Translations under genes and position numbers: made by a program
Source: Prosthecobacter sp.
GTDB lineage: Bacteria > Verrucomicrobiota > Verrucomicrobiia > Verrucomicrobiales > Verrucomicrobiaceae
NCBI RefSeq assembly: GCF_014879935.1
Contig: NZ_JACSRD010000090.1
Span: forward strand, 1 to 42,197
Direction: 5' to 3'
Length of the DNA stretch: 42,197 bases
The notes under the pieces: generated by a model
Database searches by the model: none
Told to the model about the DNA's origin: nothing
Seen by the model: the letters and a program-made list of their open reading frames with translations, nothing else
In this document: one piece after another, positions 19,316 to 41,909 of the stretch
Numbering within the stretch: the first letter of the stretch is position 1
How the letters are laid out: every line of letters begins with the position of its first letter

Positions 19316-20047
19316 CTAGCTGAACGCCGCTGCGAGCATGGCGATCTCCTGTTTCACCTCGTCCGGGGTGGTCACGGTGTCTGAGACGGTTTGTTCAAGA
19401 AGGGCACGGTAGCGTTTGCGCAGGCGGTGGACGCTGACTTTGATGTCGCCGACGGTTTTGCCGAGCTTCGCGGCCACGTCTGCATAGCTCTCATCTCCGG
19501 CGTTCCAGGCGATGAATTGCTGCAAAGCATCAAAGACGGCCGTCTGCCCCCGAGTGGCAAATTCATGGCGCAGTGCGTCTTGGACGCTTTGCAGCAGAGT
19601 GGCGGCCCAGGCACGATCAAAGAGCTGCTCGGGCGTGTTGGAGTCCAGCGGTTCCACGCCATAGCGCTGCTCGGCGAGCGCTTGGTCGTAGGACTCGATG
19701 ATTCTGCCACCGCCGCGCTTGGCGGCTGTTTGCCGGGTGCGTTCGTTGGAGAGGTAGAGTTTCACATCCGTCAGGAGGAAGGCGCGCAGCTTTCCGCGAC
19801 TTTTGTCCGCCTGATCGAGGTATTGACGCTCCAACAAACCGGCAAAGTAGCCCTGGGTGAGGTCCTCGGCGTCCTGCGGACGGTCACAGGTGCGGCGGAT
19901 GTAGGCGTAGATGGGATACCAGTAGGCCGAGCAGAGGTCATTCAGAGCACGACGTGCCTCAGCAGCCTGGCCGGAGCGGGCTTTGAGCACGATGCTCCAG
20001 CGGGTGGTGAGGAAGGGATCGGGAGCGTGGCGGGCGGTTTCGCTCAT
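19316..20047 (-). CDS. ECF-family RNA polymerase sigma factor
   Basis: A 243-residue sigma-70-type factor. It has an N-terminal 'FLTTRWSIV' segment typical of Planctomycetota/Verrucomicrobiota ECF factors, sigma region 2 at about 35-106 (YWYPIYAYIRR, DAEDLTQGYFAGLL, NERTRQTAAKR), and sigma region 4 at about 186-218 (ESYADVAAKLGKTVGDIKVSVHRLRKRYR). A tail of about 25 residues follows region 4. There is no anti-sigma gene beside it. ECF factors of this kind are often coded near Ser/Thr kinases of the type found at 23190, and control through phosphorylation has been suggested for such pairs. It diverges from the secreted-protein gene at 20186, and the 138-bp gap holds a TGTAACC-N17-TTGAGCG site shared with two other genes here. 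Confidence 0.92.
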   Translation of the reverse strand: MSETARHAPDPFLTTRWSIVLKARSGQAAEARRALNDLCSAYWYPIYAYIRRTCDRPQDAEDLTQGYFAGLLERQYLDQADKSRGKLRAFLLTDVKLYLSNERTRQTAAKRGGGRIIESYDQALAEQRYGVEPLDSNTPEQLFDRAWAATLLQSVQDALRHEFATRGQTAVFDALQQFIAWNAGDESYADVAAKLGKTVGDIKVSVHRLRKRYRALLEQTVSDTVTTPDEVKQEIAMLAAAFS

Positions 20048-20107
20048 GGCGGCTGGTTTTGTCAGGATACCGGTTCGAGAGCAACCCCAAAGAATTTTTC
20101 ACCTGTC

Positions 20108-20138
20108 TGTAACCTTCGGCGCGGTGGTCACTTGAGCG
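20108..20138 (+). promoter_or_regulatory. Candidate ECF-type promoter, site 1
   Basis: TGTAACC (20108-20114), a 17-base spacer, then TTGAGCG (20132-20138). The same pair of boxes with exactly 17 bases between them stands at 22202 and 34117. The AAC-bearing upstream box fits the usual -35 of ECF promoters. It lies 47 bp before the ATG at 20186. Confidence 0.65.
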
Positions 20139-20185
20139 GGGCAGGCCGGCATGATGCCGAGTCCCATTACCCAACGAATCCATTC

Positions 20186-21004
20186 ATGAAAACCACACGC
20201 TCTTTTCTTCGTTCTCTGGCAGTGCTGGCGCTGCTTTCCTCCTCCGTCATGGCGGCCCAGGATTTCTTTCCTGCTGACACCACGGTTTTGATCCAACACG
20301 ACCGCCTGCGCGTGCCCGCCCGTGCGCCACGGGGGCGTCCGCTGAACTACAACACGAAGTTTTACCCTTTCACGGTCACCACCCCGGGACTTTACCAGGT
20401 GGCGATGGCCTCACAGGCACGCGAGGAGAATCCAGGTCATCTTGAGGGCGGTGTCCTGACCGCTTCCCAACGGAGCGCCTTTGAACGCGGCGTGCATGTG
20501 GCCCAATGCACACTGGTTCATTTTGACGTCGCGCCCTTGTGGAAAAAGCAGCTCAACCCGGGCACCTACTGGTTTGCCGTGCGCACCCGCTGGACGCATG
20601 AGGGCGATGGAAAGACAGCCACCTACACGCTGCGAGCGGACCGTATCGACCCTGCGCCGGGGCTGGGCCGCCTTTGGTTCTGGGATGAGTCTGCTGACGT
20701 CACACGCTTTGTTGCCGCCAAACCCGAGCTTCGCAGCCTGGCCATCCGCGTGAGGTCTGACCAGCGGCTGATGATGAACGTGATCAAGGAACTGGATCAT
20801 GTGAGTTCCTTTCTGATCCGAGAGGATCAACTCACGGCCTGGCGTGAGGGCCGGAATCTACAGCCGGTGCATGAGTTCCGTGGCTTCTCCTCCCAGTTCA
20901 ACATGGGCGGTCTGCCGCTTGGAAACTATTACTTCGTGAGCAGCCGCGGAGGCCGTGCCTACAGTGCGGGCGTGATGTGGGTGAACACCTACCGCAGCCG
21001 CTGA
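20186..21004 (+). CDS. Secreted protein of unknown function, first gene after the sigma factor
   Basis: A 272-residue exported protein with a clear signal peptide (MKTTRSFLRSLAVLALLSSS, cleavage near VMA-A). The start ATG at 20186 was chosen because the longer frame upstream of it would run through the candidate promoter and has no similarity to anything. The mature part is mostly beta strands with many tyrosines and paired 'YTLRADRIDPAPG' and 'LPLGNYYFVSSRGG' type strands. That would fit a jelly-roll or PPC-like fold, but I do not recognise a family. No catalytic motif is seen. It is the first gene of the plus-strand locus under candidate promoter site 1. Confidence 0.8.
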   Translation: MKTTRSFLRSLAVLALLSSSVMAAQDFFPADTTVLIQHDRLRVPARAPRGRPLNYNTKFYPFTVTTPGLYQVAMASQAREENPGHLEGGVLTASQRSAFERGVHVAQCTLVHFDVAPLWKKQLNPGTYWFAVRTRWTHEGDGKTATYTLRADRIDPAPGLGRLWFWDESADVTRFVAAKPELRSLAIRVRSDQRLMMNVIKELDHVSSFLIREDQLTAWREGRNLQPVHEFRGFSSQFNMGGLPLGNYYFVSSRGGRAYSAGVMWVNTYRSR

Positions 21005-21051
21005 ATCGAGCCTGTCCCGCTGCCCTCTTCACCTTTTGCGCCCGCACTTTT

Positions 21052-22170
21052 ATGCAAACCATGCATCTGCTGCTGCTTGTCCCTGGTGTGATGTTCTTTG
21101 GGTTCGTCCTCGCGCCGGGGGGTGGAAAAAAACAGGAGTCCGCCGCATCTCACGTTGCTACGGTGGCGCACCGGACGAGGCCGACACAGCTCCACTCTCG
21201 TGTAAAGACGAGCAGGCAGGCTGGCGTGAGTCTGGCGGATTATCTGGCCGCGCTGGAGAGGGCCCTGCGGGATGGTGGGCAGCCTGCGGTGGTGTTGTGC
21301 AGCCACTTGCACATGGCATCTCCAGAGCTGCTGGGCGGGCTGCTGGAGCATGCTTTTCTGCGCTGGGGAGACCAGCCCTGGCTCCACGAGGTTTGTGCGC
21401 CCTTCTTGCGGCGTTGGATGAAGGGTGACGTGCGTTTGCTGGACGCCTGGCTTGCTGGCATCCCGCGCCATGACGCGCATCTCAATGCCCTGCGCACGGT
21501 CGCCGCCATCTGGGTCGCCGATGACCCGGTGGCCGCGCTGGCATGGACAGGGCGTCTGGCGGAGGAGAAGCAGGGCATGGTGCTTTCATCCATGGGGGAA
21601 ATGCTGCTGCTGAGCCACGGTGAGGCCGCCTTGTGGCAGATCGCCCGCAGTGACTCGGCGGCGCGGGAGCCCTTGCTGAACGCGATGCTGGAGGTGCTTG
21701 CGGACGAGCAGCCCGCTCGTGCCTGGCAGATCGCGCTTTCTCCACAGATGAGTTTGTCAAAGGAGGGCATGCAGGCCGTGGCTGCCCGTGCAGTGCGGGT
21801 GAAGGGCAGCCGTGCTTTTGCCGAGTTGGAAGCCGCCCAAGGCTGGCAGGATAACGAAAAACGAGCCGTGGCGGCGGTGATGATGTCTGCATGGGCCGAG
21901 AGCGATCCTGCAAGCGCAGCGGCATGGCTGGTGGAGACTCCCGGACAATGGGAAAATGCCACGCTGGTCTCCGGTCTTGCCTTCAACCTGCTGGAGGCAG
22001 ATCCCTCCGCCGCGATGGCCTGGATGGAGATTATTCCAGAGGAAGAAGTCCGGCTGGCGGGGCTACAATCGGTGTGGAGCAGGTGGGCGCAGGCCGACCT
22101 CGCTGCCGCGCAGCAATGGAGGCTGGAGCATCCCGCGCATGAAGCACTGCTGGCGGAAGGCGGCCTGTGA
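21052..22170 (+). CDS. Secreted/anchored helical-repeat protein
   Basis: A 372-residue protein from the ATG at 21052 (MQTMHLLLLVPGVMFFGFVL), which gives a signal peptide or anchor followed by a basic Gly-Lys-Lys segment. The rest is alpha-helical and built from repeats of about 30-35 residues with a 'W...DP.AA.AW' core: WVADDPVAALAWTGRL, AWAESDPASAAAWLVETPG, LLEADPSAAMAWMEIIP, RWAQADLAAAQQWRLEHP. Similar repeat proteins are common and unstudied in Verrucomicrobiota; they look like HEAT/TPR-type scaffolds. It begins 47 bp after the preceding gene. Confidence 0.78.
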   Translation: MQTMHLLLLVPGVMFFGFVLAPGGGKKQESAASHVATVAHRTRPTQLHSRVKTSRQAGVSLADYLAALERALRDGGQPAVVLCSHLHMASPELLGGLLEHAFLRWGDQPWLHEVCAPFLRRWMKGDVRLLDAWLAGIPRHDAHLNALRTVAAIWVADDPVAALAWTGRLAEEKQGMVLSSMGEMLLLSHGEAALWQIARSDSAAREPLLNAMLEVLADEQPARAWQIALSPQMSLSKEGMQAVAARAVRVKGSRAFAELEAAQGWQDNEKRAVAAVMMSAWAESDPASAAAWLVETPGQWENATLVSGLAFNLLEADPSAAMAWMEIIPEEEVRLAGLQSVWSRWAQADLAAAQQWRLEHPAHEALLAEGGL

Positions 22171-22201
22171 ATCAGGCGCACCACAAAAAACATCCGCAGC
22201 C

Positions 22202-22232
22202 TGTAACCCTTTTTGGCGGCTTCCTTTGAGCG
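22202..22232 (+). promoter_or_regulatory. Candidate ECF-type promoter, site 2
   Basis: TGTAACC (22202-22208), 17 bases (starting CTTTTTGGCGG), then TTGAGCG (22226-22232). Compared with site 3, similarity continues through the spacer and into the signal-peptide codons. The -10-like box ends only 12 bp before the ATG at 22245, so the transcript would be nearly leaderless. Confidence 0.68.
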
Positions 22233-22244
22233 TGGATGAATCCC

Positions 22245-23078
22245 ATGAAAACATGCCTCTCCATCCTCCTCGCCTCCGTCGTCCTCCAGTCTGCCGCCTC
22301 GGCCCAGTCCTGCCTGCTGCATGAGTGGATCTCGAACGACCAGCGCCGCATCCACGCGCGGTTCGTCGGCGTGGGAGCCAGCTCCGTGCTGATCGAAAAG
22401 GACGGCAGCGTTTTTCATGTGCCGTTTGCCCGCCTGGCTCCGGAAAGCATCGCTCAAGCGCGGAGTCTCGGCAGGCTGGATGACACGAAAAAGGCCTTGG
22501 CGACGAAGGCGGTCAGACAAACGCCACCAGATGCACCGAAAGCCCCTGCCATGCCTGTGACGAGGGTTGTCTCGAAAATGCCCGCACCTGCTGCGTTGGC
22601 GAAACCGGTGTTGCATCGCCCGCCGAGCCTGCCCCCGGTGAAACCGGCGGCCTCCGCCATGCCCTGCCTGCTGTCTTTGAATGGCAAAACAGCCACAGCC
22701 ACCACCGAGGTGCCTTACACCATTCAACGGGCCATCGAGGCGGGGAACTACCTCCAGACGAAGCCCTATGTATGGGGTGGCGGCCATGGATCGGTGATGG
22801 ACCGGGGCTATGACTGCTCAGGCAGCGTGTCCTATGTGCTGATTCAGGCCGGGCTGTTGAACCGTCCGCTGACTTCCAGCAGCTTTGCTCGTTACGGCTT
22901 GCCGGGGCCGGGCAAATACATCTCCATCCATGCTGGGCCGGGGCATGTCTTCATGACCCTTTGCGGTCTGCGCCTCGACACGGGAGGCCGCGGCGGTCGT
23001 GGGGAAAGCGGCCCGCGCTGGAGCAGCACGGCACGTTATGGCAGCCAGTGGACCGTGCGGCATCCGCCGGGCTGGTGA
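22245..23078 (+). CDS. SHD1 plus NlpC/P60-like cell-wall hydrolase
   Basis: A 277-residue exported protein. It has a signal peptide (1-20, ending ASA), an SHD1 domain (27-77: ISNDQRRIHARFVGVGASSV, with the typical VFHVPFARL end), a Pro/Ala/Lys linker (80-140), and a C-terminal domain with the NlpC/P60 pattern. C191 is in YDCSGSVSYVL and H234 in GPGHVFMTL. These would be the catalytic Cys and His of a peptidase cutting stem peptides of peptidoglycan. A KPYVWGGGHG strand precedes the Cys, as in the family. The ATG at 22245 is preferred to 22236, because it aligns with the paralogue at 34159 residue for residue. Activity is inferred. Confidence 0.85.
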   Translation: MKTCLSILLASVVLQSAASAQSCLLHEWISNDQRRIHARFVGVGASSVLIEKDGSVFHVPFARLAPESIAQARSLGRLDDTKKALATKAVRQTPPDAPKAPAMPVTRVVSKMPAPAALAKPVLHRPPSLPPVKPAASAMPCLLSLNGKTATATTEVPYTIQRAIEAGNYLQTKPYVWGGGHGSVMDRGYDCSGSVSYVLIQAGLLNRPLTSSSFARYGLPGPGKYISIHAGPGHVFMTLCGLRLDTGGRGGRGESGPRWSSTARYGSQWTVRHPPGW

Positions 23079-23189
23079 GGCTCCTCGGAATCTCACGCCG
23101 CTTGTTTGAAAATGCTCCGCGTTTGTTTTTAACATGCCGACTTAAGCCCAACGACTTATTCATTGGTGGAACTCACCTCCCGGAAGCTC

Positions 23190-25262
23190 ATGAAACTGCC
23201 CTGCCCGCATTGTTCGCACCTCTTGACGCTGGATGACACTCGACTGGAGGCCTACGCACCCGGTTTTGACTGCCCGCAATGCGGCGACCGAGTGGAGCCG
23301 GAACTCGCCACGGAGCCAGAAGACTCCGCGCCCACGCTCCATTCGCCCACCGGCCAGTGCCCGCAGTGTGGAGCCACGCTGCCGCCGGGCATGGCCCCCA
23401 GCCAGTGCCCGCGCTGCCTGCTCGGCGCAGGCATGGCGGAGAGTGAGGGCTCCGTGCTCCAGCCGGGAGGGGAGTTTGACTCCCGCTACCGCATCGAGCG
23501 GCTCATCGGCAAAGGTGGCATGGGCGCGGTGTATTCGGCGCTGGATGCGCGGCTCGGGCGGAAGGTCGCCGTGAAAGTGCTGCCGGAGCACATCGCGGAT
23601 CATCCCGAGGCTGCGGCCCGCTTTGAGCGCGAGGCACGCGCCATGGCCGCCCTCCAGCATCCAAACATCGTGCAGGTGCATGACTTCGGCGTCACGCTGG
23701 ATGGCGGGCACTACCTCGTGATGGAGCTGGTGGATGGCATGAATCTCCACCAGCTCCGCCAGAGCCGTCAGCTCACGCTTCATGGCACGCTGCAAATCAT
23801 CTCCCAGGTCTGCCAGGCACTGCATTATGCGCACAGCCGCGGCATCGTGCATCGGGACATCAAGCCCGCGAACATCCTCGTCACCCGCGAGGGCGTGGTG
23901 AAGGTGGCGGACTTTGGCCTGGCCAAGATGCTCGGCACGGAGACACGCACCTCCGCTGCCGCGGAGCGCACGTTGACAAAATCCGGCACCGTCATGGGCA
24001 CGCCCGACTACATGGCCCCCGAGCAGATCGAAGGCCGCCGCGTGGACCACCGCGCGGACATTTATGCCCTCGGCGTCATGCTTTATGACCTGCTCACCGG
24101 CACCCCGCCACGCGGTGCCTGGTCGCCCCCGAGTGATCTGCTGGAGGTCGATCACCGGCTCGATGAAATCATCCTCCGCGCCCTGCGGCTGGACCCGCAG
24201 GACCGCTACCAGAGCGCCCTCGAAGTGCAGCAGGATGTCGACAGCGTGAGCACCAGCACGGGCGGGCAGCCTTTGCCGCCTGGACCCGCCGCGCCGCTGC
24301 CCTCCACCGGCTCACGCCCCGCTGCCGTGGCCCCCGCACGCCGTGCCACCACGGTGAAGGCCGCTGTCGTGCTCGCAGACTCTGCGGCGGAGCAGGAAGA
24401 AGACGACGAGGATGGCTACGATCCCGCTGTGGAGGCCATGCTGCGCACCACCCGCAGCCTGAACAGCACCATGCTCATCCTCGGTCTGCTCGCCATCGGC
24501 CTCATCGGCGGCCTGGCCGTCTTCCTCGCCATGCGAAAGACCGGAGACGTCCACAACATCAGCCAGACCATCACCACCACCGTCACGAACAACAGCTACT
24601 TCACCCAGCTCATCGCCTCCGGCGTCACCTCGCTCGATGACCTCGCCGCGCTGGAAATCCGGCCGCTGGGGGATGCCTTCGTCGGCATCACCCGCAGCTC
24701 GCAGACCTGGACGCAGGCCAGCGAGCTCGCCAAACGCACCGGGTCGGAAGTTTTGACCGTCGATACCGCCCAGACCTCCGAAATGGAGCAGCTCGAAGCC
24801 TGGCTTTCCAGCGACAGCAAAGCTTCCGCAGCCCTCTGGGTGCGCCAGGGCATCGAACCTGCCCTCTACGCCGCCAAGTCGGTGAAACCCTCCGCTTCAC
24901 CAGATGCCCAGCATCCCGCCCTGCTGGTCTGGAAGCCCGAAAAAGTCCTCTCCGCCTCCAAAAACACGGAGACCACCGCTCAGCCACCTCCTCCTGCTCC
25001 ACCTTCTCCCACTCCATCTGCCCCGCCACCAGTCTCCTCCTCTCCAAGTCTCCCCGCCTCCATGTCTCCCAGTCCTCAAGTCTCCCCGACGCCTTCGAGC
25101 TGGACCGATACCACCGGCCGCACCATCCAGGCCACCTTCCTCCGCCTGGAGGGCGAGTCCGTCATCGTGCGCATGGACGGGAAGGAATTCACCATCCCCT
25201 TCACCCGCCTCTCCCCGCCGAGCATTGAGCAGGCCAAGAGGCTCGGTGCTGCCGCAAAATGA
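23190..25262 (+). CDS. Membrane Ser/Thr protein kinase with two zinc ribbons, sensor module and SHD1 domain
   Basis: A 690-residue kinase. In order it has a zinc ribbon (C5, C8, C28, C31), a second ribbon (C57, C60, C73, C76), and a Hanks-type kinase domain (about 100-350). The glycine loop is IGKGGMGAVYSAL, with K129, HRDIKPAN (221-228), DFG (241-243) and GTPDYMAPEQ (270-279), so all catalytic residues are present. One TM helix follows (427-448), then an extracytoplasmic module (470-581) with GITRSSQTWTQASELAKRTG, a Pro/Ser-rich linker (599-637) and a C-terminal SHD1 (638-685). The start at 23190 (MKLPCPHC) aligns with four paralogous membrane proteins; the upstream TTG at 23163 is less likely. 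Kinase inside and SHD1 outside suggests sensing of the envelope. Confidence 0.94.
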   Translation: MKLPCPHCSHLLTLDDTRLEAYAPGFDCPQCGDRVEPELATEPEDSAPTLHSPTGQCPQCGATLPPGMAPSQCPRCLLGAGMAESEGSVLQPGGEFDSRYRIERLIGKGGMGAVYSALDARLGRKVAVKVLPEHIADHPEAAARFEREARAMAALQHPNIVQVHDFGVTLDGGHYLVMELVDGMNLHQLRQSRQLTLHGTLQIISQVCQALHYAHSRGIVHRDIKPANILVTREGVVKVADFGLAKMLGTETRTSAAAERTLTKSGTVMGTPDYMAPEQIEGRRVDHRADIYALGVMLYDLLTGTPPRGAWSPPSDLLEVDHRLDEIILRALRLDPQDRYQSALEVQQDVDSVSTSTGGQPLPPGPAAPLPSTGSRPAAVAPARRATTVKAAVVLADSAAEQEEDDEDGYDPAVEAMLRTTRSLNSTMLILGLLAIGLIGGLAVFLAMRKTGDVHNISQTITTTVTNNSYFTQLIASGVTSLDDLAALEIRPLGDAFVGITRSSQTWTQASELAKRTGSEVLTVDTAQTSEMEQLEAWLSSDSKASAALWVRQGIEPALYAAKSVKPSASPDAQHPALLVWKPEKVLSASKNTETTAQPPPPAPPSPTPSAPPPVSSSPSLPASMSPSPQVSPTPSSWTDTTGRTIQATFLRLEGESVIVRMDGKEFTIPFTRLSPPSIEQAKRLGAAAK

Positions 25263-25288
25263 CTTCCCAACTGACCCACCTCATCCCC

Positions 25289-26143
25289 ATGAACACCCGT
25301 CTCATCCTCCTCGCCTTCGCCATCTCGGTCCCCAGTTGTGACCGAAGCGCTCAACGACAAGAAGAAGCCATCGCCTTCGTCAAAAGCATCGGCGGCGTGG
25401 TGCGGTTAGACGACAAATCTCAAACCAATCCAAAGCCCATCCGTCATGTTAGCTTCGGCGGTTCAAAGGAAAACATGTCAAAGCTCGATGACAGCGCGAT
25501 GTCACGCGTAGCCGATTTGGGACAGATCGAAGAGTTTCACATCAACGGCTACCCGGCTTTCACAGACCAAGGCATCGCCAGTCTGGCGAAGGTCCAGGGC
25601 CTGGAGCGCATCATGCTCTGGGGCGCTCACAAACTCACCGACCAATGCTTTGAGCACCTGTCCCAAATGAAGAGCCTCACGTCCCTGAATGCGGGCTACA
25701 GTGGCATCGACACCATGACTGGTGCAAACCTAGGTTCGCTGGCAGCCCTCCCGAACCTGCGCAGCCTGAACCTCTCCAACCTCTACAAATTAGAGGGCCA
25801 GAATCTGGCTCACCTGTCAGCTTTGAAGCAGCTCGAAACACTCGATCTGATGCACAACCCCAAGGTGGCAGACGCCGATCTCGCCTTCATGTCCGCGTTG
25901 ACGCATCTGAAACAGCTTTATCTGGGCAGCACCCCGTTGACGGATGCCTGCATCCCTCATCTCGCCAGGTTGCAAGCACTTGAAACTCTCAACCTCAGCA
26001 ATAGCAAGATCACCGACACCGGAATCAGGGGATTAAAGGGCTTGAAGCAGCTCAAAAAACTGAACTTGAAACAGACCACGGTCTCCGATGCCGGCGTGGC
26101 AGACCTCCAGTCCGCCCTTCCAGGCATCCAAATCACGCGATGA
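25289..26143 (+). CDS. Leucine-rich-repeat lipoprotein
   Basis: A 284-residue protein. The ATG at 25289 gives a signal sequence with a possible lipobox ending at C17 (MNTRLILLAFAISVPSC); an ATG at 25259 overlapping the kinase stop is the alternative. Residues about 100-284 are at least seven leucine-rich repeats of 22-25 residues (LETLDLMHNPKVADADL, LKQLYLGSTPLTDACI, LETLNLSNSKITDTGI, LKKLNLKQTTVSDAGV). Their spacing fits the cysteine-free RI-like type common in Planctomycetota and Verrucomicrobiota. Such repeats bind other proteins. It sits 26 bp after the kinase gene, so a role as a periplasmic partner is plausible but unproven. Confidence 0.85.
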   Translation: MNTRLILLAFAISVPSCDRSAQRQEEAIAFVKSIGGVVRLDDKSQTNPKPIRHVSFGGSKENMSKLDDSAMSRVADLGQIEEFHINGYPAFTDQGIASLAKVQGLERIMLWGAHKLTDQCFEHLSQMKSLTSLNAGYSGIDTMTGANLGSLAALPNLRSLNLSNLYKLEGQNLAHLSALKQLETLDLMHNPKVADADLAFMSALTHLKQLYLGSTPLTDACIPHLARLQALETLNLSNSKITDTGIRGLKGLKQLKKLNLKQTTVSDAGVADLQSALPGIQITR

Positions 26144-26163
26144 AGCTTTCACATTGTGCCGCC

Positions 26164-27123
26164 ATGAACACATGCCTTTTTTCCATCCTCCTCGCCACCG
26201 CCACCTTCGCGCAGGCGCAACAACCGCCGCCAGCTTTTGACCCGACGGTGCTTGCGCAATTTCCTTCCAACTGGGACATCATGTTTCCAAAGGCTGTCCA
26301 AGTGGAAATCCCAGCTGCTGGCAGCGGAAAGAAGACGGTGAAAACCTATTGTGGCCTAAAATACCTCATTGGAGGCGATGGCTTCAAGGCCGACAAAACC
26401 AGCGCTTATGAATCGAAGATCGACGTTCGTTTGCTGGTCACCTCTGACGAGTCCCTGCTGACACCCGCCTCGGACAGCACGGAGAGCGGTATCGTCACCA
26501 CCTTGATGAAGAGCCTAAGTGAAGTGGGACGTAGGACAGTCATTGAAGCGCTGACTCCCTTATTGCAGTCCCTTGAGCCAAAGAAAATAACTGACCGTGA
26601 TCCTCTCTGGCTCCTTGAAGACGCCCGGGGCCGGGTGCGTGCCTATGTGGCAGAAGTCAACGCCGTGCTCGCCGTCACAGCCGAGCAGACGGTGCGTGAT
26701 TACATCCGCAGAGAGCTTCAGTATGTCGGCTCCGTGGCTGTCAAGGCGGCAGACCGCCCGGCCATCCATGACTTTGCTGCGTTGCCCGATCAGCTCAAAA
26801 AGGCGCGAGCTCAACTCAGCGCCGACATGCAAGTCCTGGCAAACGCTGCCGCCTGGACAAACACGGAGAAATGGTTTGATGGGTTCAATAGGCAAATGCT
26901 CCCAACATTGCGGGCGCGACTCAAATCCCCGGAAGCAATCGCTCTCACCGACGAGGTCATTCAAGGAAAGAAGACTACCGCAGAACTGGGTTCATTCGCC
27001 CAGAAGCAGCGGGACAAGCTGCGGGACGCCACCGTGATCATCCATGCACTCCGCAGCGGCTCAAACCCTGAGATCATGCAGCTCCAGGCGGAAACGATTC
27101 TCAACCACTGGGCCAAGCCATAA
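26164..27123 (+). CDS. Secreted helical protein of unknown function
   Basis: A 319-residue exported protein from the ATG at 26164, with signal peptide MNTCLFSILLATATFAQA; a frame start at 26140 overlaps the preceding stop. A short N-terminal beta part (about 20-110, with AVQVEIPAAGSGKKTV) is followed by long amphipathic helices with many charged residues (about 120-315). I recognise no family and no catalytic motif. It lies between the LRR lipoprotein and the RCC1-like protein, with 20- and 17-bp gaps. Confidence 0.75.
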   Translation: MNTCLFSILLATATFAQAQQPPPAFDPTVLAQFPSNWDIMFPKAVQVEIPAAGSGKKTVKTYCGLKYLIGGDGFKADKTSAYESKIDVRLLVTSDESLLTPASDSTESGIVTTLMKSLSEVGRRTVIEALTPLLQSLEPKKITDRDPLWLLEDARGRVRAYVAEVNAVLAVTAEQTVRDYIRRELQYVGSVAVKAADRPAIHDFAALPDQLKKARAQLSADMQVLANAAAWTNTEKWFDGFNRQMLPTLRARLKSPEAIALTDEVIQGKKTTAELGSFAQKQRDKLRDATVIIHALRSGSNPEIMQLQAETILNHWAKP

Positions 27124-34069: not shown

Positions 34070-34116
34070 GGAGCCGAGCGCGGCCGGACACGGCCTGAAA
34101 AAAGTTCACAAAGGTC

Positions 34117-34147
34117 TGTAACCCTTTTTCGGGACTTCACTTGGCGG
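34117..34147 (+). promoter_or_regulatory. Candidate ECF-type promoter, site 3
   Basis: TGTAACC (34117-34123), a 17-base spacer starting CTTTTTCGGGA, then TTGGCGG (34141-34147). It is 11 bp before the ATG at 34159. It starts a new transcription unit within the long gene run, consistent with the wider 89-bp gap here. Confidence 0.66.
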
Positions 34148-34158: not shown

Positions 34159-34998
34159 ATGAAAACACGCCTCACCACCCTGCTGCTCACCTTTCTCTCC
34201 CTTACCACCGTGAATGCACACAGCGGTGACCTGCTGAACTGGACCTCCAACGACCAAAAGACCATCCAGGCACGCTTCATCGGCGTGGGAGCCTGCTCAG
34301 TGCTGATCGAAAAAGAAGGCCGTGTCTTCCACGTGCCCTTCACCCGCCTTTCCGCGCAGAGCGTGGCCCAGGCGCGGCAGTTGGGCGGACAGATCGCGGC
34401 GGAGAAAACATGCCCGAAGCCCGAACTCCGAATGCCTAAAGCTCCGCAGATCATGGCAGCGGCTTCGCCTTCGTCATTCGTCACTCGTCATTCATCATTT
34501 TCAGGGCCCCGCCTGCCATGTAGCGCGGAGTGGAACTTCCTTGGTGCCTGTCGCGATGGCATGGACATCGCGGTGCAGCGCACGATGGCGACCGTTTTCG
34601 GCCACGACACCAGTCTCGGCGTCATCGACCCGAATGATAACGGCCGCTGCGCCAGCGGTCGCGGCACCTGGGCGAATCCGGGCATCCTTGGCTGTGCCTT
34701 GCCAGTCAGCCTCGCACGCCGCTCCACCATGGGCTCTCCGTTTGCTCAATTGGCGGGCCTGCCGTGGTTCACCCAGGTGGAGGTCACCTATCGCGGCCGC
34801 ACCATCACCGTGCAGCTCATCGACAATGGCCCCTCCGCCCCCAAGTCGGGAGATCGCATCCCCGCCGGCATCGACCTCACGCCCGCCGCCTGCCTGGCAC
34901 TCGGCATCCCGCTGGAGGACATCCGTGCGAACCGCGTTTCCTTCCCCGTCAGCTTCCGTGTGAAAAATGTCATCCGCCCCATGCTCGCCGCCAACTGA
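34159..34998 (+). CDS. SHD1 plus RlpA/expansin-like DPBB protein
   Basis: A 279-residue exported protein. It has a signal peptide (1-20, ending VNA), an SHD1 domain (27-77) aligned residue for residue with that of the NlpC-like protein at 22245 (NDQ..I.ARF.GVGA.SVLIEK.G.VFHVPF.RL), and a linker (80-115) with an odd SPSSFVTRHSSFS insert. The C-terminal DPBB domain (about 120-270) contains MGSPFAQLAGLPWFTQVEVT, then VQLIDNGPSAPKSGDRIPAG, then IDLTPAACLALGI. RlpA-like DPBB domains cut glycan strands lacking stem peptides, or bind them. Whether the catalytic Asp (D222 or D232) is competent cannot be judged here. The ATG at 34159 is chosen; TTG at 34141 lies in the promoter. Confidence 0.86.
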   Translation: MKTRLTTLLLTFLSLTTVNAHSGDLLNWTSNDQKTIQARFIGVGACSVLIEKEGRVFHVPFTRLSAQSVAQARQLGGQIAAEKTCPKPELRMPKAPQIMAAASPSSFVTRHSSFSGPRLPCSAEWNFLGACRDGMDIAVQRTMATVFGHDTSLGVIDPNDNGRCASGRGTWANPGILGCALPVSLARRSTMGSPFAQLAGLPWFTQVEVTYRGRTITVQLIDNGPSAPKSGDRIPAGIDLTPAACLALGIPLEDIRANRVSFPVSFRVKNVIRPMLAAN

Positions 34999-35036
34999 GC
35001 CCGATCCCTGCTGTTCACCCTCTCGCCTCTCACGCC

Positions 35037-35678
35037 ATGAAACACATCGTCTCCCTTTTGCCGCTGCTTTCCCTTCTTCTGTGGCTGCCTCTCGCCCAGG
35101 GCCAGGAGGCCTCACCCGCCCAAATCAGCTCTCCCTCCGCGGCGTGGACTGCGGAAGACTATGCACGCTTCACGCCGGCCACATTCAGCCAGCATCAAGC
35201 CGCGCAGCAGGTGATGGACCGGGATCAAATCGACCACGCTCTTCTCAACGCCGCGCTTTTCTTTGCCACAAACACCGAGCGTCTCCGGCACCGGCTGCCG
35301 CCTTTTCAGCCCTCGCGGGCGCTCACGCTGAGCGCCTTTGAGCACTCGCGGGACATGGCGCTGAAGGGCTTCTTTTCTCATCAAAACCCGAAGGATGCCG
35401 CGAAACGCACGCCCTGGCAGCGCATGGCCGCCCAAGGTGTCACCGGAGGCCATCGCGCGGAAAACATCGCCATGCGCACGGCCCGTGGCGTGACCTATCT
35501 CGATGCCGCGCAGGCGCTTTTGAAGCAGTGGATGAACTCCCCCGGCCATCGGGCCAACATCCTCAATCCCAAGTTCGCCTTTCTGGGTTGCGGAGCCCAT
35601 TTTTGCCGCAGCGCAAAGCTCCAGCTCTACGCCACGCAAAACTTCGCCTCCACCGTGACGCAAACACCCGCACCTTGA
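35037..35678 (+). CDS. Secreted CAP/SCP-domain protein
   Basis: A 213-residue exported protein (signal peptide 1-21, ending AQG) of the CAP/PR-1 superfamily (COG2340). The conserved tetrad residues are H103 in FEHSRDMAL, H115 in GFFSHQNP, E142 in GHRAENIA and H171 in MNSPGHRANILNPKF. Bacterial CAP proteins are secreted, and some are wall-associated and calcium- or sterol-binding. The exact function is unknown. It follows the SHD1/DPBB gene by 38 bp, so it is likely co-transcribed from candidate promoter site 3. The third secreted wall-active type in this locus. Confidence 0.9.
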   Translation: MKHIVSLLPLLSLLLWLPLAQGQEASPAQISSPSAAWTAEDYARFTPATFSQHQAAQQVMDRDQIDHALLNAALFFATNTERLRHRLPPFQPSRALTLSAFEHSRDMALKGFFSHQNPKDAAKRTPWQRMAAQGVTGGHRAENIAMRTARGVTYLDAAQALLKQWMNSPGHRANILNPKFAFLGCGAHFCRSAKLQLYATQNFASTVTQTPAP

Positions 35679-35720
35679 CCGCACCGAGAAACGCCGAACC
35701 TTTTGTCCCGTTCTTCTGCC

Positions 35721-37181
35721 ATGAACCTCGCCTGCCCTCACTGCACGCAGCCGCTCGAACTCACGCCGGAGGTGCTCGCTGAATTGGCGGGCTGCGTGGA
35801 CTTTCCGTGTCCCGAATGTGGTGGTGCGGTGCCGCTGCCGGTGGATTCGCCACCGGCTGAAGAGACCGCGATGGAAAAGCCGGTCGAGGCACCTGCGGAT
35901 GAGATGATGAAGCCTGCCGCCGCCGTGATTACGCGCCGGAAGGTGGCGCTGGAGCTTTTTCAGCAGGCGAACCGGCGTGTGCTCATCCTCGGCTCGGCGG
36001 CCATGCTGGTGCTGGGCGGTGTGGCGGGCATGCTGGTGCATCACTTCAGCGGGAATCGCGTGGACCTGAACCAGGACATCACGAACGAGATCCTCAAAAA
36101 CAAGTTTTTCACCGACCTCATCGCCTCCGGGGCCACGACGATGGAGCAACTGCGCCGGGTGGAGCGCATCGAGGCGCATGGGCCGGGCTTCATCGGCCTG
36201 AGCCGTGAGGAGCTCACCTGGGAGCAGGCGCAGGAGCTGGCGCGTGCCACCGCCGCCCGGATGCTGGCGGTGGAGACGCCCTCGGAGCACCGCGCTCCCT
36301 GGACTTCTCCCGTGATGCAGCGGCTGGTGAATTTTCTGGAGCAGCGCTTTCCCGCCGCGCAGGGCCGCACCGTCTGGGTCATGCAAAACAGCGATGCGAA
36401 CCTGCCGCAGGTGTTTCACGCCCCGGATGTGAGCCACGTCACGACGCGAGAGCGGCCGCGGCGGGTGTTTCTGCACTGGATGCAGCTCCCGAAAGCGCCG
36501 GACAAAGGAGCCAATGTCTCCGCGCTCCGGTTTGAAGGCCGCCAGGCGGTGGTGGTGCAAGACCACGCGGATTTTCACGAGATCGAGACACGGGACGAGC
36601 TGAGCATCGAGGCATGGATTCGCGTGCATCGGCTGGACCGGAAAATTTTTCCCATCCTGGACAAGTCCGACACGACCGATGGCTTTGGTTGGTACTTTGA
36701 GCTGAATGGGGACACGGTGACTTTTACCACCGGTTGGCGGGGCGGACTCGCCTTCAAATGGCAGGCACCCCTCTGGCAGTGGTGCCATGTGGCATTCAGC
36801 TACCGGAGGACTGAAGGCCGGGCGCACTTGTATGTGAATGGGCGTCCCTCAGGAGAAGTAGCCTTTAATGCCGAAGTGCAGCCCACGACGGAGACTCCTC
36901 TATACATCGGACGCGGCATCTCCGGAGTGAACGAGTTCACGATCGGTGACATCGACGAAGTCCGCCTCTGGAAGCGTGCTCTCAGCGCGGACGAGGTTCT
37001 GGAGCGTTATCAAAGCCAGGTCAAAGGAGATGAGCCGGGGCTGGTCGGCTGCTGGCGCTTTGATGAAGGCAGCGGTGCCACCTCGAAAGACCTCACTGGA
37101 CGCCACCAGACCTCCTTTTCTCCCGAGGATGCACCTCCGCAGTGGGAGTCTGCGGTTCCATTTCTCTCGCCTCACTCCTGA
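35721..37181 (+). CDS. Zinc-ribbon/TM/sensor-module protein with LamG domain
   Basis: A 486-residue paralogue of the gene at 28354. It has a zinc ribbon (C5, C8, C30, C33, plus C25), a basic stretch (TRRKVALELFQQANRR) and a TM helix (86-108). The shared module is at about 129-253: FFTDLIASGATTMEQL, FIGLSREELTWEQAQELARA, then the APDVSHVTTRERPRRVFLHW end. The C-terminal laminin-G-like domain (about 265-450) reads LSIEAWIRV, WCHVAFSYRR, HLYVNGRPSGEVAF, IGDIDEVRLWKRALS and ends LVGCWRFDEGSG. LamG domains of this kind bind glycans or proteins. The start at 35721 was chosen by alignment with MKLxCPHC paralogues. Confidence 0.88.
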   Translation: MNLACPHCTQPLELTPEVLAELAGCVDFPCPECGGAVPLPVDSPPAEETAMEKPVEAPADEMMKPAAAVITRRKVALELFQQANRRVLILGSAAMLVLGGVAGMLVHHFSGNRVDLNQDITNEILKNKFFTDLIASGATTMEQLRRVERIEAHGPGFIGLSREELTWEQAQELARATAARMLAVETPSEHRAPWTSPVMQRLVNFLEQRFPAAQGRTVWVMQNSDANLPQVFHAPDVSHVTTRERPRRVFLHWMQLPKAPDKGANVSALRFEGRQAVVVQDHADFHEIETRDELSIEAWIRVHRLDRKIFPILDKSDTTDGFGWYFELNGDTVTFTTGWRGGLAFKWQAPLWQWCHVAFSYRRTEGRAHLYVNGRPSGEVAFNAEVQPTTETPLYIGRGISGVNEFTIGDIDEVRLWKRALSADEVLERYQSQVKGDEPGLVGCWRFDEGSGATSKDLTGRHQTSFSPEDAPPQWESAVPFLSPHS

Positions 37182-37199
37182 TCCTCACCTCTCACGGCC

Positions 37200-40100
37200 A
37201 TGAAATTCCAATGCCCTCACTGCGCCCAGTTGCTCTCCCTGGCGGATGAGCAGGTCGCCGCGCTACCGCAGCCGGCCATGATCGACTGCCCCACCTGCGG
37301 TGGCCGCTTGATGCTGCCTGTCACCGCACCGAGGCCGCAGCCGAAAAAACCGACCCTGCACTTTTCCGCGGCACCACAGCCTGCGAAGCCAAAAAAAACC
37401 GCACCGTCCCCCAAACCTCGGAAGCCCAAAAAAACACGCGCTCCACTGGATCCAGCCCAAGTGCGCCGAAACATCCTCATCCTCGGCTGCGCCGCGCTGG
37501 TCACCCTCGGCGGCATCGCTGGATTCCTGGCCACGCGGGAAGCTGGAAAGACGGTCAAAATCGAGCAGAAAATCGTCAACAAGCTCATTCAGAACGAATA
37601 CTTCCAGCGCCTCATCCGCGAGGGCAAAACCACCGAGGAGGCACTGGCGAAGGTGGAGGATGCCTACGCCTACGGCCCCGGCTTCATCGGCGTGAGTCGT
37701 GCTGAATACACTTGGAAGGAATCCGAGGAGCTGGCCCGCAGCACCGCCTCCGTGATCCTGGACGTGACCGTGCATGCACGGCAGGGCAGAGAGGAGCTGG
37801 GCGGCTGGATCGCTCAAAACATCCCTGCACTGCGCAACACACCTGTGCGCGTCAAACACCTCTCCAAACTCGCTTTGATGGATGCGCCAGACCTTCTCAG
37901 CCTGTCCGAAGAAAGGCCGCGTCGTGTGCTGCTGGCATGGCCAGCGGTGGAGGACTGGCCGGACAAAGGCTGGACTTGGACGGTGAAACCGGACTTTGAG
38001 GCTGTGGAGCGCTTTGATGCCGCCACGGGCCTGGCCCGCGCCCGTTCCGGTGGTCACTGGGGCCTCATTGACCGCAAGGGCGCGTGGGTTTTAAAGCCCG
38101 AGCACGAAAGCATCGATCGCTTCAGCGCCCGGCAGTCCGCCGTGCTGCATGGCAAAGACGGCATGCAGGGCCTGGTGGACTCCGCCGGTCGCATCGTGGC
38201 ACCTCCGGTCTATGAGGAGGTGCAGGAGCTGATTCATGGCTTCGTGCCGGTGAAAAAAGACGGCAAATGGGGCTACCTCGATGCCACTGGAAAGCAGGTG
38301 GTGCCACCCGAGTGGGAGGATGCCTGGCGTTTCAACGCTCTCGGCTACGCGGTCGTCACGCATGACCGCAAACGCGGCCTCATCGACCGCTCAGGCCGGG
38401 TCGTGCTCCCGCCTCAGTGGGATGGCATGATCAATTTCTCTCCGGAGGGCATCGGTGCCGTTCGGCAGGGCGCGCGGGACTGGGGACTCATCACCCCGCA
38501 CGGGCCGCTTACGCCGGTGAATCACGAGCTGGACTGGCAGGAGCGCACCCTGGACCTCGGCTTCATGCGCTTGCGTGGCAGCGATGGCAAAAGGACCGTC
38601 TTTGACCTCCAGGGCAAGGAACTCGCAAGCCTTACGGGCGCAGATGCCGTGCATGTCGTCGGCTCACCCCGCGGCCCGCTTTTGAAAGTGGAGTGGCCGG
38701 ATGGCTCCCTCAGCCTCCAGGACCCAGATGGCCGCGTGCTTTTCCGCACGCAGGGAAAAGGCCGCCTCACCCACTTTGGCACCGACGGGCTGGCGGTGGT
38801 CGAGGATGACCGCGGAGCCGCTCTCATGGATGCGCTCGGCAGGCTCAGCGCGCCCTTTTCCAAGGAAACCCGGCCTTCGGCGAAGCCGCCGGGCTACGAC
38901 AACGCACCGCCGGCATCTTCTCGATACAGCCAGAGCCGCGGCTATGGCTCCGCTTACGGTCAGTTGCCCCCCGGTTGGACCACCAAGACCGTGAAGTCCG
39001 CCTTCACTCCAGAGTCGCCCTACTGGAACCGCTACATCAAGAGCATGCCCTACCGCCTGCAAAGCGCCCCGGACCTGCTCTCCCCCAGTGGCAGCATCGT
39101 GCTCAGCGGCATGAATCCACGCCACGAGCTGCTGGAGGACCTCGTGCCCTATGCCATGCCGCCGAAATACGGCCTGATTGATGCCTCCGGCCGCGTGCTC
39201 GCCGAGCCTGCCTGGGACGAGGCCCGTGTGCTCTCCAAAGATTGGGTGCTCATCCGTGTCGGGCACCGTTACGGCCTCGCCAACGGCCAGGGGGAGGTCG
39301 TGGTCGAGCCAGTGTGGGATGACATCAAAGTGCCATTTGTCAGCTACGTCTCCCTCGCTGCGGATGGCAAAACCGTGCAGCTCGGCACCGAAGGCACACG
39401 CTTCCGCGCCCCCTGGATCATCGCCTATCAAAAAGACGCCAAAACCGTGCTCCTGCCGGATGGCAAACCCGCCCTGCCTGCGAAGCTCGACCATGCCGAG
39501 ACACAGTATGTGGACTTCTACGGCCCGGACCGGCTCGTCATCCGGCTGAAGGAAAGCACCGGCGTGGTGAATCTAGCCATTTACGAACCACGCAGCGGTG
39601 CCCTCACACGCTTTCCAGAGGCAGGCAGCTTCCTCTGGAACTGGACCAGCGCCGCCGCTGGCATGATCTGGATGAAGGACGCCAAGGCCACCACGGAAAT
39701 CTGGCGGCTCATGACTCGTGAGGGCCGCCCGCTCGGCTACACCCGGGCCGAGGAGCCCTGGGGCTGGGGCTTTGCCGAGGACCGCGCCGCCCTCCCCACG
39801 CCAGACGGCTGGACCTTCATCGACCCATCAGGCCGCCGCATCGGCGATGGCACCTTCTGGCAGGAGGTGCGCGACTTCCGCGAAGGCCGCGCCGCGGTGA
39901 AAAAAGATGGCAAGTGGGGCTTCATCGACCTCGACGGCAAGCTCGTCATCCCCGCCATCTGGCAGGAGGTGCGCGACTTTCATCATGGCCGCGCCGCCGC
40001 GCTGGGGGCGGATACCTCATTCTGGGGCTACCTCGCCCCGGATGGCACACTGGCCCTCGCGGCCCTCTGGACTGAGGCGCGTGATTTCACCGCCTGGACC

Positions 40101-40868
40101 ATCGACGGCACGGGGGAAAGCCTCAGCCGCATGCAGGACACCCATTCCTACTACAACCGTCGCCTCCAAAAATGGATCCACAGCGGCGAAGGTGCTTGGA
40201 AAGGCCAGTCCAGCGATCCACAGCGTCGCGGCACCCCGCGCAGCCGCCCTGTCGCCACCGTCCAGAGCGGCACCACCTGGGTCATCATCGGTGCCGACGG
40301 ACTCCCGCTCATCGATCCCGTCATCACCAGCAGCCCGCCCGCCGAGTTCCTCCTCCGTGAAGCCGCTGACGGTCAAATCAGCCTCGTGAAGCCTGGTTTT
40401 GGCCCCAAAACACGAGGTCTCATCTGGCAGGACGCCACCACCGCCTGGGTGCTGGAGGAAAACGGCATGGGCTGGGCCTTCTGTGACGCCACAGGGCGCA
40501 AACTCAACCCCACCATCTGGAATGATCCTCCCCGCCAGGGAGAGCCGGATGCCTTCTCCCTCGGCGGCACCGTGGCCCGCAGCCAGGAGGGGGCCGAGGC
40601 GCTGCTTGCTCCCTCTGGCCAGCTTTTGCTCCCGCCCGCGCAGGAGCGCATCATCTGGGTCGCTCCCGGAGTCGCCGTCACGTGGGAAAAAACGACCGGT
40701 GGTCTCGTCAATGCCCAAGGCCAGTGGCTCTTCAAAGATGACGCCAAGCGCCGCATCGCCCGATTTGGCAGCCTGAACCGTCGAGGCACCTACGACGAAC
40801 TGCGCCATGGCCTCATCGTCATTGAGGACCAGCCTCGCTGGGGCTTCGCCCGCCTGAACCGCCCCTGA
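37200..40868 (+). CDS. Zinc-ribbon/TM/sensor-module protein with WG repeats, giant
   Basis: A 1222-residue membrane protein. It has a zinc ribbon (C5, C8, C30, C33), a very basic Pro/Lys linker (48-85) that favours a cytoplasmic N-terminus, a TM helix (90-112), the shared module (134-247: FIGVSRAEYTWKESEELARS, ending RPRRVLLAW) and then about 970 residues of WG-type repeats. Examples are HWGLIDRKGAWVLKPEH, KWGYLDATGKQVVPPEW, KYGLIDASGRVLAEPAW, RYGLANGQGEVVVEPVW and KWGFIDLDGKLVIPAIW. WG repeats form beta-rich solenoid or propeller arrays and presumably bind something at the surface; the ligand is unknown. The repeats are partly degenerate in the centre (about 560-640, where a Ser/Pro/Tyr-rich insert interrupts them). 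It is the largest protein in the locus. Confidence 0.9.
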   Translation: MKFQCPHCAQLLSLADEQVAALPQPAMIDCPTCGGRLMLPVTAPRPQPKKPTLHFSAAPQPAKPKKTAPSPKPRKPKKTRAPLDPAQVRRNILILGCAALVTLGGIAGFLATREAGKTVKIEQKIVNKLIQNEYFQRLIREGKTTEEALAKVEDAYAYGPGFIGVSRAEYTWKESEELARSTASVILDVTVHARQGREELGGWIAQNIPALRNTPVRVKHLSKLALMDAPDLLSLSEERPRRVLLAWPAVEDWPDKGWTWTVKPDFEAVERFDAATGLARARSGGHWGLIDRKGAWVLKPEHESIDRFSARQSAVLHGKDGMQGLVDSAGRIVAPPVYEEVQELIHGFVPVKKDGKWGYLDATGKQVVPPEWEDAWRFNALGYAVVTHDRKRGLIDRSGRVVLPPQWDGMINFSPEGIGAVRQGARDWGLITPHGPLTPVNHELDWQERTLDLGFMRLRGSDGKRTVFDLQGKELASLTGADAVHVVGSPRGPLLKVEWPDGSLSLQDPDGRVLFRTQGKGRLTHFGTDGLAVVEDDRGAALMDALGRLSAPFSKETRPSAKPPGYDNAPPASSRYSQSRGYGSAYGQLPPGWTTKTVKSAFTPESPYWNRYIKSMPYRLQSAPDLLSPSGSIVLSGMNPRHELLEDLVPYAMPPKYGLIDASGRVLAEPAWDEARVLSKDWVLIRVGHRYGLANGQGEVVVEPVWDDIKVPFVSYVSLAADGKTVQLGTEGTRFRAPWIIAYQKDAKTVLLPDGKPALPAKLDHAETQYVDFYGPDRLVIRLKESTGVVNLAIYEPRSGALTRFPEAGSFLWNWTSAAAGMIWMKDAKATTEIWRLMTREGRPLGYTRAEEPWGWGFAEDRAALPTPDGWTFIDPSGRRIGDGTFWQEVRDFREGRAAVKKDGKWGFIDLDGKLVIPAIWQEVRDFHHGRAAALGADTSFWGYLAPDGTLALAALWTEARDFTAWTIDGTGESLSRMQDTHSYYNRRLQKWIHSGEGAWKGQSSDPQRRGTPRSRPVATVQSGTTWVIIGADGLPLIDPVITSSPPAEFLLREAADGQISLVKPGFGPKTRGLIWQDATTAWVLEENGMGWAFCDATGRKLNPTIWNDPPRQGEPDAFSLGGTVARSQEGAEALLAPSGQLLLPPAQERIIWVAPGVAVTWEKTTGGLVNAQGQWLFKDDAKRRIARFGSLNRRGTYDELRHGLIVIEDQPRWGFARLNRP

Positions 40869-40895
40869 AAACTCCGCTCATCTGTTTTTCAGACC

Positions 40896-41909
40896 ATGAA
40901 ACGCCATTTTGCTCTCCTTTGCCTCACACCACTCATCCACGCCGCCAGCCTCCAGGAGCAGGCGGATGCCTTTTTTGCGCGTGGTGAAGCGGCGGAAAAA
41001 CGCGGCGACACCCAACTGGCCGAAGTTTGCTACCAGCTCGCACTCCGCGCCCAGCCCGGCCATTTCGGAGCCATGGAGCACCTGCAAAAAATGTCCCCCG
41101 CGGCCTTCAGCGCCTCCACAAACCCCCAAGTGGCCGGAAAGTGGGTGTATCCCCGAGTCCAGTTCCAAAGTGCCACTCTCGACGAAGCTGTCGAGTTCCT
41201 CCGCGTCAGATCACGGGACATTGATCCCCGAGGCATCGGCGTGGACATCATCCAGGCGGCTCCTTCATCACAAGCCTCCATTAGTCTCGATCTCCTGCAA
41301 GTGCCGCTGGAAGACACCGTCCGCTACTGCGTCGAACTCTGCGGTCTCGCCTGGCGCTGGGAAAACGGCCGCATCCTCATCACGCCCAAAGACCAGGCAG
41401 GCAAACCGCTGCCCGAAGTCCCTATCGCCTCTGGAGCACCGGATCTCGCTGCCTGGCGGCTGCCCAAGCTCACCTTCAGCGCCGCCCGCCTGCCGGAGGT
41501 GATGGATTTCTTCACCCGGGCCAGCACCAGCGCCGATCCATTCAGCAAGGGCATCCGCCATGCCTTCCATGATGCTCAAGGAAAGCCGGTTGACGCCAAA
41601 GCCTTCAGTCAGGCCACTCTCAGCCTCGAACTGCACCACATCAGCGCCCACGAGGCTTTGCGCTACATCACACTCCTCTCTGGCGCGGTCATCCGCGTGG
41701 AGAAAGACCAGGTCATCCTCCAGCCTGCCGGAGCAGTTCCCCAGCTCCACCATTGGACCAACACGGCCGGAGCCACCGTCGCGGCCGCCTTTGTCCGCCT
41801 CGACGGCGATTCCGTCGTCATCCAGCGTGACGGCAAAGAATTCACCATCCCCCTCGCCAAGCTCGATCCCGCCAGCCGGGAGCTGGCAAAAAAATTATCG
41901 GCCCCTTAA
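40896..41909 (+). CDS. Secreted protein with two secretin-N-like domains and SHD1
   Basis: A 337-residue exported protein (signal MKRHFALLCLTPLIHA). It has a short TPR-like helical part (18-65), then two copies of the verrucomicrobial STN/secretin-N-like domain. Copy 1 is at about 80-165 (VQFQSATLDEAVEFLRVRSR, then VPLEDTVRYCVELCGLAWRW and GRILITP). Copy 2 is at about 190-280 (LTFSAARLPEVMDFFTRAST, then HISAHEALRYITLLSG and DQVILQP). SHD1 is at the C-terminus (about 285-334: HHWTNTAGATVAAAFVRLDG). This SHD1 shares the string KEFTIP with the kinase SHD1. Such domains occur in surface assembly proteins; here no secretin pore is next to it. Last gene of the locus. Confidence 0.82.
   Translation: MKRHFALLCLTPLIHAASLQEQADAFFARGEAAEKRGDTQLAEVCYQLALRAQPGHFGAMEHLQKMSPAAFSASTNPQVAGKWVYPRVQFQSATLDEAVEFLRVRSRDIDPRGIGVDIIQAAPSSQASISLDLLQVPLEDTVRYCVELCGLAWRWENGRILITPKDQAGKPLPEVPIASGAPDLAAWRLPKLTFSAARLPEVMDFFTRASTSADPFSKGIRHAFHDAQGKPVDAKAFSQATLSLELHHISAHEALRYITLLSGAVIRVEKDQVILQPAGAVPQLHHWTNTAGATVAAAFVRLDGDSVVIQRDGKEFTIPLAKLDPASRELAKKLSAP

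Follow-up and report, generated by a model that had tools for sequence, protein, structure and literature searches.

The locus at positions 19316–41909 of contig NZ_JACSRD010000090.1 of Prosthecobacter sp. encodes an extracytoplasmic function (ECF) sigma factor, a Ser/Thr kinase and four kinase-less proteins, which share with the kinase zinc ribbons with CPxC pairs, a transmembrane (TM) helix and an outer module of ~120 residues. The whole stretch of DNA analysed, 42,197 nucleotides in length, is referred to as the window. The locus could represent a self-contained envelope-sensing system, in which an array of co-receptors acts on one kinase and the sigma factor serves a private regulon; the chance that this interpretation is right is put just short of even. 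The host genome comprises 7,737,555 bases in 286 contigs. The window is an entire contig, so the locus may continue past its right end.

Common unit of the kinase and the kinase-less proteins

The locus was translated, and its proteins were scanned against Pfam and NCBIfam. The components of the proposed system are listed below; genes are denoted by their first position.

19316–20047 (−): ECF sigma factor, 243 aa; Sigma70_r2, E 2.8e-5; region 2.2 with QDAEDLTQ; oriented away from the other genes of the locus
23190–25262 (+): Ser/Thr kinase, 690 aa; Pkinase, E 2.1e-51
24582–24947 (+): module of the kinase, located by module search and alignment
28354–30282 (+): kinase-less paralogue; zinc ribbon, TM helix, module (28663–29028), weak ConA-like C-terminal region
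30303–31766 (+): kinase-less paralogue; zinc ribbon, TM helix, module (30621–30998), C-terminal domain without family match
35721–37181 (+): kinase-less paralogue; zinc ribbon, TM helix, module (36084–36488), LamG (Laminin_G_3, E 6.9e-24)
37200–40868 (+): kinase-less paralogue; zinc ribbon, TM helix, module (37578–37955), WG repeats (WG_beta_rep, E 7.4e-59)

The kinase consists of two CPxC-pair ribbons, the kinase domain, a TM helix, the module, which is predicted to be C-type-lectin-like, and an SHD1-like domain. With the kinase module as query, five copies of the module are detected in the genome (7.74 Mb), all of them in this locus. The kinase module matches those of the four paralogues with E-values of 1.3e-21, 2.5e-12, 1.9e-10 and 2.6e-9, and the alignment of the five contains 15 invariant columns. 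The first-pass annotation of this DNA, made from the sequence alone, had assigned ribbon, TM helix and module to these five proteins and had placed the cysteines of all four kinase-less members at residues 5, 8, 30 and 33; both assignments are borne out, with an additional C25 in 35721. The kinase cysteines are located at 5, 8, 28 and 31, plus 57, 60, 73 and 76. The best match to Zn_ribbon_4 in the window (37200, E 0.00079) lies, like the others, below the curated cut-off; the CPxC pairs are present.

A hydrophobic TM segment is found in the kinase and in each of the four paralogues. The module is common to all five, as proposed, but the common stretch is longer than the ~115 residues initially described: it starts before the TM helix and continues via a juxtamembrane segment into the module. 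Mean pairwise identity amounts to 0.48 in the TM part, 0.36 in the juxtamembrane segment and 0.39 in the module (0.52 in its first half, 0.28 in the remainder). The TM part is thus conserved at least as much as the module.

Among the C-terminal domains named previously, LamG and the WG repeats are recovered. For the ConA-like domain of 28354 there is no more than a hint (3keto-disac_hyd at E 0.0022, below cut-off), and the Ig-like domain proposed for 30303 finds no match in the Pfam or NCBIfam scans.

Structure prediction for the module

For the module, a C-type-lectin-like domain of compact, cysteine-free build is predicted. The TM part and module of 28354, modelled with AlphaFold2 (169 residues, mean pLDDT 77, module blocks 76–95), were used for a fold search, in which all 50 matches listed are C-type-lectin-like domains by entry title, the best being NKR-P1A (E 1.4e-4; Z 11.1, rmsd 2.5 across 95 residues). 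The model of the outer part of the kinase (271 residues, pLDDT 80) likewise gives C-type-lectin-like titles in 50 of the 50 matches listed, none below E 0.001 (best 3.3e-3). In a comparison of the module sequence profile with PDB chains, the top seven of 11 matches are C-type-lectin-like, all of them weak (E 0.02–0.31). A wholly new fold, which was considered as well, was rejected, since these fold and profile searches favour C-type-lectin-like domains.

In 16 modules scanned with Pfam, no family exceeds its cut-off (11 stray matches, the strongest at E 0.014), and Lectin_C gives no match in any of the 16 module proteins at E up to 1, where filters remove most matches above 0.1. The module columns of the 16 aligned rows contain no cysteine, so the disulphide cysteines of Lectin_C are absent.

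The C-type-lectin-like fold forms pairs in animal receptors. The NK-type receptors of animals (NKR-P1, CD94, Ly49, LOX-1) have the same fold as that predicted for the module, and their layout, with a cytoplasmic N-terminus, one TM helix and an outer domain, is also that of the module proteins. Unlike them, the bacterial module has no cysteines and no Pfam Lectin_C match, and it belongs to a bacterial kinase system.

Occurrence and gene order in related genomes

Among 37 near genomes, only the window's own contains the module (single-sequence query). A profile of the five window modules gave matches in 4 of 387 genomes of a phylum sample at E up to 0.01, own genome included. The three other matches (E 0.0024–0.0078, 387 genomes) were rejected as relatives, being at chance level; the frame at L007 resembles an unrelated hydrolase. 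A search of the genome collection returned one locus, L014 of Akkermansiaceae bacterium UBA2381, and the module is present in 5 of 287 genomes related to the latter, itself included. In an order sample it was found in 8 of 386 genomes, own included (two of the window's genus, four of family f3 and two of f2), five of the eight being those of the 287-genome set; in a class sample it was found in 1 of 384 (own only). The system is rare and confined to one order in these overlapping samples.

Seven of the eight genomes have a kinase bearing the module; the eighth (that of L057, 81% complete) has paralogues only. The loci are arranged as follows.

L014: ECF gene, kinase (module, SHD1), then a kinase-less module protein with an FGE-sulfatase domain
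L030 (begins within the kinase): kinase, ribbon/TM/FGE protein without module, module–LRR protein, module–3keto-disac_hyd protein (E 2e-30), ribbon/TM/FGE protein without module
L031 (window's genus): kinase and the start of a module protein with 74% identity to 28354 over 80 residues; ECF gene not found in the 0.9 kb 5' of the kinase
L032/L033 (two contigs of one genome, overlapping in the WG paralogue stretch): ECF gene, kinase, ribbon/TM/ConA-like protein without module, bare module protein, module–WG protein, TPR/secretin-N/NPCBM protein
L034: ECF gene, kinase, then contig end
L057: two module proteins; kinase not seen on the contig
L058: module kinase, ribbon/TM protein without module, another kinase; kinase-less module protein absent

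ECF gene, kinase and kinase-less module proteins occur together in L014 and L032/L033, and partial sets are found elsewhere. Kinase and kinase-less module proteins form one array in L014, L030, L031 and L032/L033. The ECF gene lies immediately 5' of the kinase in L014, L032 and L034; in the window the two are 3.1 kb apart and divergent. The gene order of WG paralogue followed by a TPR/secretin-N-like protein is common to the window end and L033. The bare module protein of L032 (~11608–12390) stops directly after the module, and an outer cargo domain is absent.

Two side observations concern the kinase genes. In L031, positions 1–900, directly 5' of the kinase, hold the remains of a frame-broken NlpC/P60-like gene, the intact counterpart of which is window 22245–23078. 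In L058, 4548–7970 (−) encodes a kinase fused to the module and to further domains that include an SHD1-like stretch; its C-terminus resembles, by eye, a C39-type peptidase.

In a tree of the modules (that of L059, a second locus of the L058 genome, left out), one branch separates 7 kinase modules from 12 paralogue modules, and its support (94/93) is just under the tool's starred mark; of the 16 inner branches 1 carries a star, and the remaining topology is weak. Such a split would be expected if both roles were old and had been kept.

Sigma factor and its pairing with the kinase

The identification of 19316–20047 as a sigma factor agrees with the Sigma70_r2 match. By the proximity of an ECF gene to a Hanks-type kinase gene, adjacent in L014, L032 and L034 and 3.1 kb away in the window, the locus belongs to the ECF–kinase paired systems in general. 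The factor has 35 matches in its own genome (itself included), and matches are present in 38 of 39 genomes of the genus (own included). Fourteen ECF stretches, nine from the own genome and five from the genus, were inspected: a kinase is recognised by motif in 12, a kinase-like open reading frame (ORF) without the motif in one, and none in one. ECF–kinase pairing is therefore ordinary in the genus. A kinase-less zinc-ribbon/TM protein was found in 0 of the 14 by the same unfiltered scan that recovers all four in the window, so the array is unusual; it is the array of kinase-less sisters that constitutes the new part. As a side observation, one ECF family matches 35 times in one genome, with kinases beside most members fetched, and each may own a private promoter.

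The abundance of such pairs would fit an ordinary ECF–kinase pair whose adjacent gene family has arisen by neutral duplication and has no particular function. This explanation, already disfavoured, is considered very improbable: the genomes bearing the module belong to three families, kinase and paralogue modules separate in the tree, and the other ECF stretches are devoid of such neighbours.

The window ECF factor retains DAED (QDAEDLTQ), and the charge-free, Thr-bearing replacement of region 2.2 typical of ECF43 is absent. In the ECF factors of L014, L032 and L034 the motif is partly degraded, with an adjacent Thr (QARETAH, KARETAH and RARETAH, respectively); the L014 factor is 34% identical to that of the window. 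ECF43 factors, in the available parts of the sources, lack DAED and are activated by phosphorylation there or, for EcfK, also in the linker (PMC8103513, PMC8999054, PMC13147305). The ECF43/Hanks kinase pairs EcfP–PknT and EcfK–PknS likewise combine an ECF factor with a transmembrane Ser/Thr kinase possessing an outer region; unlike in the window, DAED is lost there, and the same parts of these papers do not mention a kinase-less receptor array (PMC8103513, PMC8999054, PMC13147305). Other ECF groups retain DAED or a similar acidic motif, according to the portion of PMC8999054 consulted. ECF59, ECF61, ECF62 and ECF217 (examples mostly from Planctomycetes) are also linked to kinase genes, and a co-receptor array is not mentioned for them in that portion (PMC8999054).

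Since DAED is intact in the window factor, another route of activation would be required, via other phosphosites or via holding by a partner. The latter could be realized if the cytoplasmic ribbon of the kinase-less proteins served to hold or inhibit the sigma factor at the membrane and the kinase released it. Membrane anti-sigma factors consist of a cytoplasmic metal-binding domain, one TM helix and an outer sensor, which is also the layout of the paralogues, and no scanned protein of the locus matches an anti-sigma family, leaving no other candidate for the role. Going by the available parts of the ECF literature, a factor with intact DAED should be active unless held. Nevertheless, this scheme is improbable. 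The ribbon is of the CPxC pair type and not of the HxxxCxxC type of zinc anti-sigma factors, the domain scans give no anti-sigma family match in the paralogues, and several paralogues would serve one sigma factor.

Promoter-like sites

The motif CTGTAACC-N16-YTTG has three exact matches in the genome (7.74 Mb), all in the locus and all in gene direction; the reversed control gives one.

20107–20134 (+): site 1, CTGTAACC-N16-CTTG, 51 bases 5' of ATG 20186
22201–22228 (+): site 2, CTGTAACC-N16-TTTG, 16 bases 5' of ATG 22245
34116–34143 (+): site 3, CTGTAACC-N16-CTTG, 15 bases 5' of ATG 34159

In L014 this motif is found at chance level only. A second motif, TGCAAC-N14-CTTTCA, occurs 5' of the kinase in L014, L032 and L034, with another copy 3' of the kinase in L032. 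Across 10 genomes it gives 1, 2 and 1 matches in those of L014, L032 and L034, all at the loci, and 0 in the other seven (reversed control 7). By eye the two motifs are alike in TGYAAC and in a second part resembling CCTTTGAG or CCTTTCAG. Their first part looks similar to an ECF −35 element.

The motifs are taken to mean that each locus has a single sigma factor and a private promoter, which would drive the kinase and the receptors. The regulon of the window factor is probably limited to this cluster. A site of this kind was not detected 5' of the sigma gene, which is hence apparently not its own target. The first-pass annotation regarded the ECF factor as the output of the system; the locus-private promoter-like motif supports this.

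Other genes of the locus and the SHD1-like domain

20186–21004 (+): 272-aa protein; signal peptide by eye; no family match (searched from 20195)
20977–22170 (+): 397-aa ORF; no convincing family match
22245–23078 (+): SHD1-like and NlpC/P60-like protein (NLPC_P60, E 0.00037, below cut-off); signal peptide by eye
25259–26143 (+): LRR protein (LRR_4, E 1.1e-15)
26140–27123 (+): protein with signal peptide by eye; no family match
27141–28334 (+): SHD1-like and RCC1-like repeat protein; signal peptide by eye
31784–34069 (+): GYF_2 (E 6.1e-9), hydrophobic segment (by eye), NPCBM (E 3.1e-10) and SHD1-like domain; no module
34159–34998 (+): SHD1-like protein; signal peptide and RlpA-like end by eye; no Pfam match (searched from 34156)
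35034–35678 (+): CAP-domain protein (CAP, E 3.4e-18); signal peptide by eye
40896–41909 (+): TPR/secretin-N-like protein with SHD1-like C-terminus (Amuc_1098_fam, E 3.3e-24, far below its cut-off); signal peptide by eye

The SHD1 domain previously assigned to the kinase is not recognised there by Pfam SHD1 at E up to 0.1; the only match is 31784 (E 0.0022, below cut-off). A profile built from the kinases of the window, L014, L031 and L032 was searched against 19 proteins and finds the domain of the kinase end in 22245, 27141, 31784, 34159 and 40896 (E 2.4e-22 to 9e-9); the L030 kinase matches as well. By these matches the kinase shares its second outer domain with mostly secreted-looking neighbours and its first with the membrane sisters.

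The protein 31784–34069 is a further membrane-protein candidate with GYF_2 in place of the zinc ribbon; NPCBM is also terminal in a protein of the L033 stretch. Outside the locus, window 14904–16469 encodes a protein with an FGE-sulfatase domain, which also gives a weak match to a HYDIN-like Ig domain.

Proposed mechanism and its alternative

According to the proposed envelope-sensing scheme, the kinase and the kinase-less proteins would assemble into mixed membrane complexes via the TM helix, the juxtamembrane stretch and the C-type-lectin-like module. Through their variable outer domains, the kinase-less proteins would bind different surface or wall ligands and thereby set the activity of the kinase, which would activate the ECF sigma factor. 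The latter would transcribe the kinase, the co-receptors and the secreted proteins of the locus from three private promoters, with read-through from site 2 past 22245–23078 to the kinase, across a 111-base gap, and onward to 34069. Feedback would then act on the receptor array and not on the sigma gene. A more specific form of the scheme is given clearly less than an even chance: many receptors would serve one kinase as swappable co-receptors, paired through the common TM part and a C-type-lectin-like dimerisation domain (cf. CD94/NKG2), and the entire sigma regulon would consist of the array and its SHD1-linked secreted partners.

In favour of the general scheme are the confinement of the five module copies to this locus, the joint arrays of kinase and kinase-less module proteins in relatives, the ECF gene immediately 5' of the kinase in three of them, the two-sided tree, the conservation of the TM part, the predicted fold, the locus-private motifs and the lack of kinase-less zinc-ribbon/TM neighbours in the 14 other ECF stretches. 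Several points weigh against it. A common domain alone is no demonstration of binding. Zinc-ribbon/TM proteins free of the module are encoded at L030 1309–2403 and 5095–6360, L032 10738–11523 and L058 3281–4102, so the module appears dispensable for some members. It had been expected almost exclusively in zinc-ribbon/TM proteins of Verrucomicrobiota beside ECF and kinase genes, which largely holds, in support of the first-pass interpretation; one exception is L059, where a diverged module (E 1.2e-9) is part of a secreted-looking, ribbon-free protein beside a ribbon/TM protein. With DAED intact in the window factor, the phospho-activation of ECF43 is not directly applicable. Both promoter-like motifs were derived from the sites they recover, and their absence elsewhere is the sole test. 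In 12 other genomes the window motif gives 4 matches, 0 of them on module contigs (reversed control 13); the module genomes G764, G834, G1005 and G972 have neither motif at their loci, on module contigs of 3.4 to 8 kb; and the motif spacing differs between families.

Moreover, the paralogues are probably targets of the sigma factor and may therefore be outputs: surface-anchored binding or repair proteins made under its control, whose ribbon, TM helix and module form an anchoring unit without a signalling role, taken over from the kinase or vice versa. The genes downstream of site 3 include 35721 and 37200, the C-terminal domains are mostly binding folds, and the module-free ribbon/TM anchors bear the same kinds of domain (FGE, ConA-like). 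This alternative is nonetheless rated unlikely, though deserving attention. A plain anchor would need no module, whereas the TM part and the module are retained across families in kinases and paralogues, and the L032 protein that ends after the module would be an anchor with no cargo.

Significance

Hanks kinases of bacteria are generally portrayed as individual receptors, each equipped with a sensor of its own, and in the literature searched, mostly open-access, no paper on such a set of a kinase and kinase-less proteins was found. If the co-receptor scheme is true, one kinase and one sigma factor would read many signals via kinase-less sisters with differing outer binding domains. The large ECF–kinase families of Verrucomicrobiota would thereby gain a locus whose predicted promoters are directly testable.

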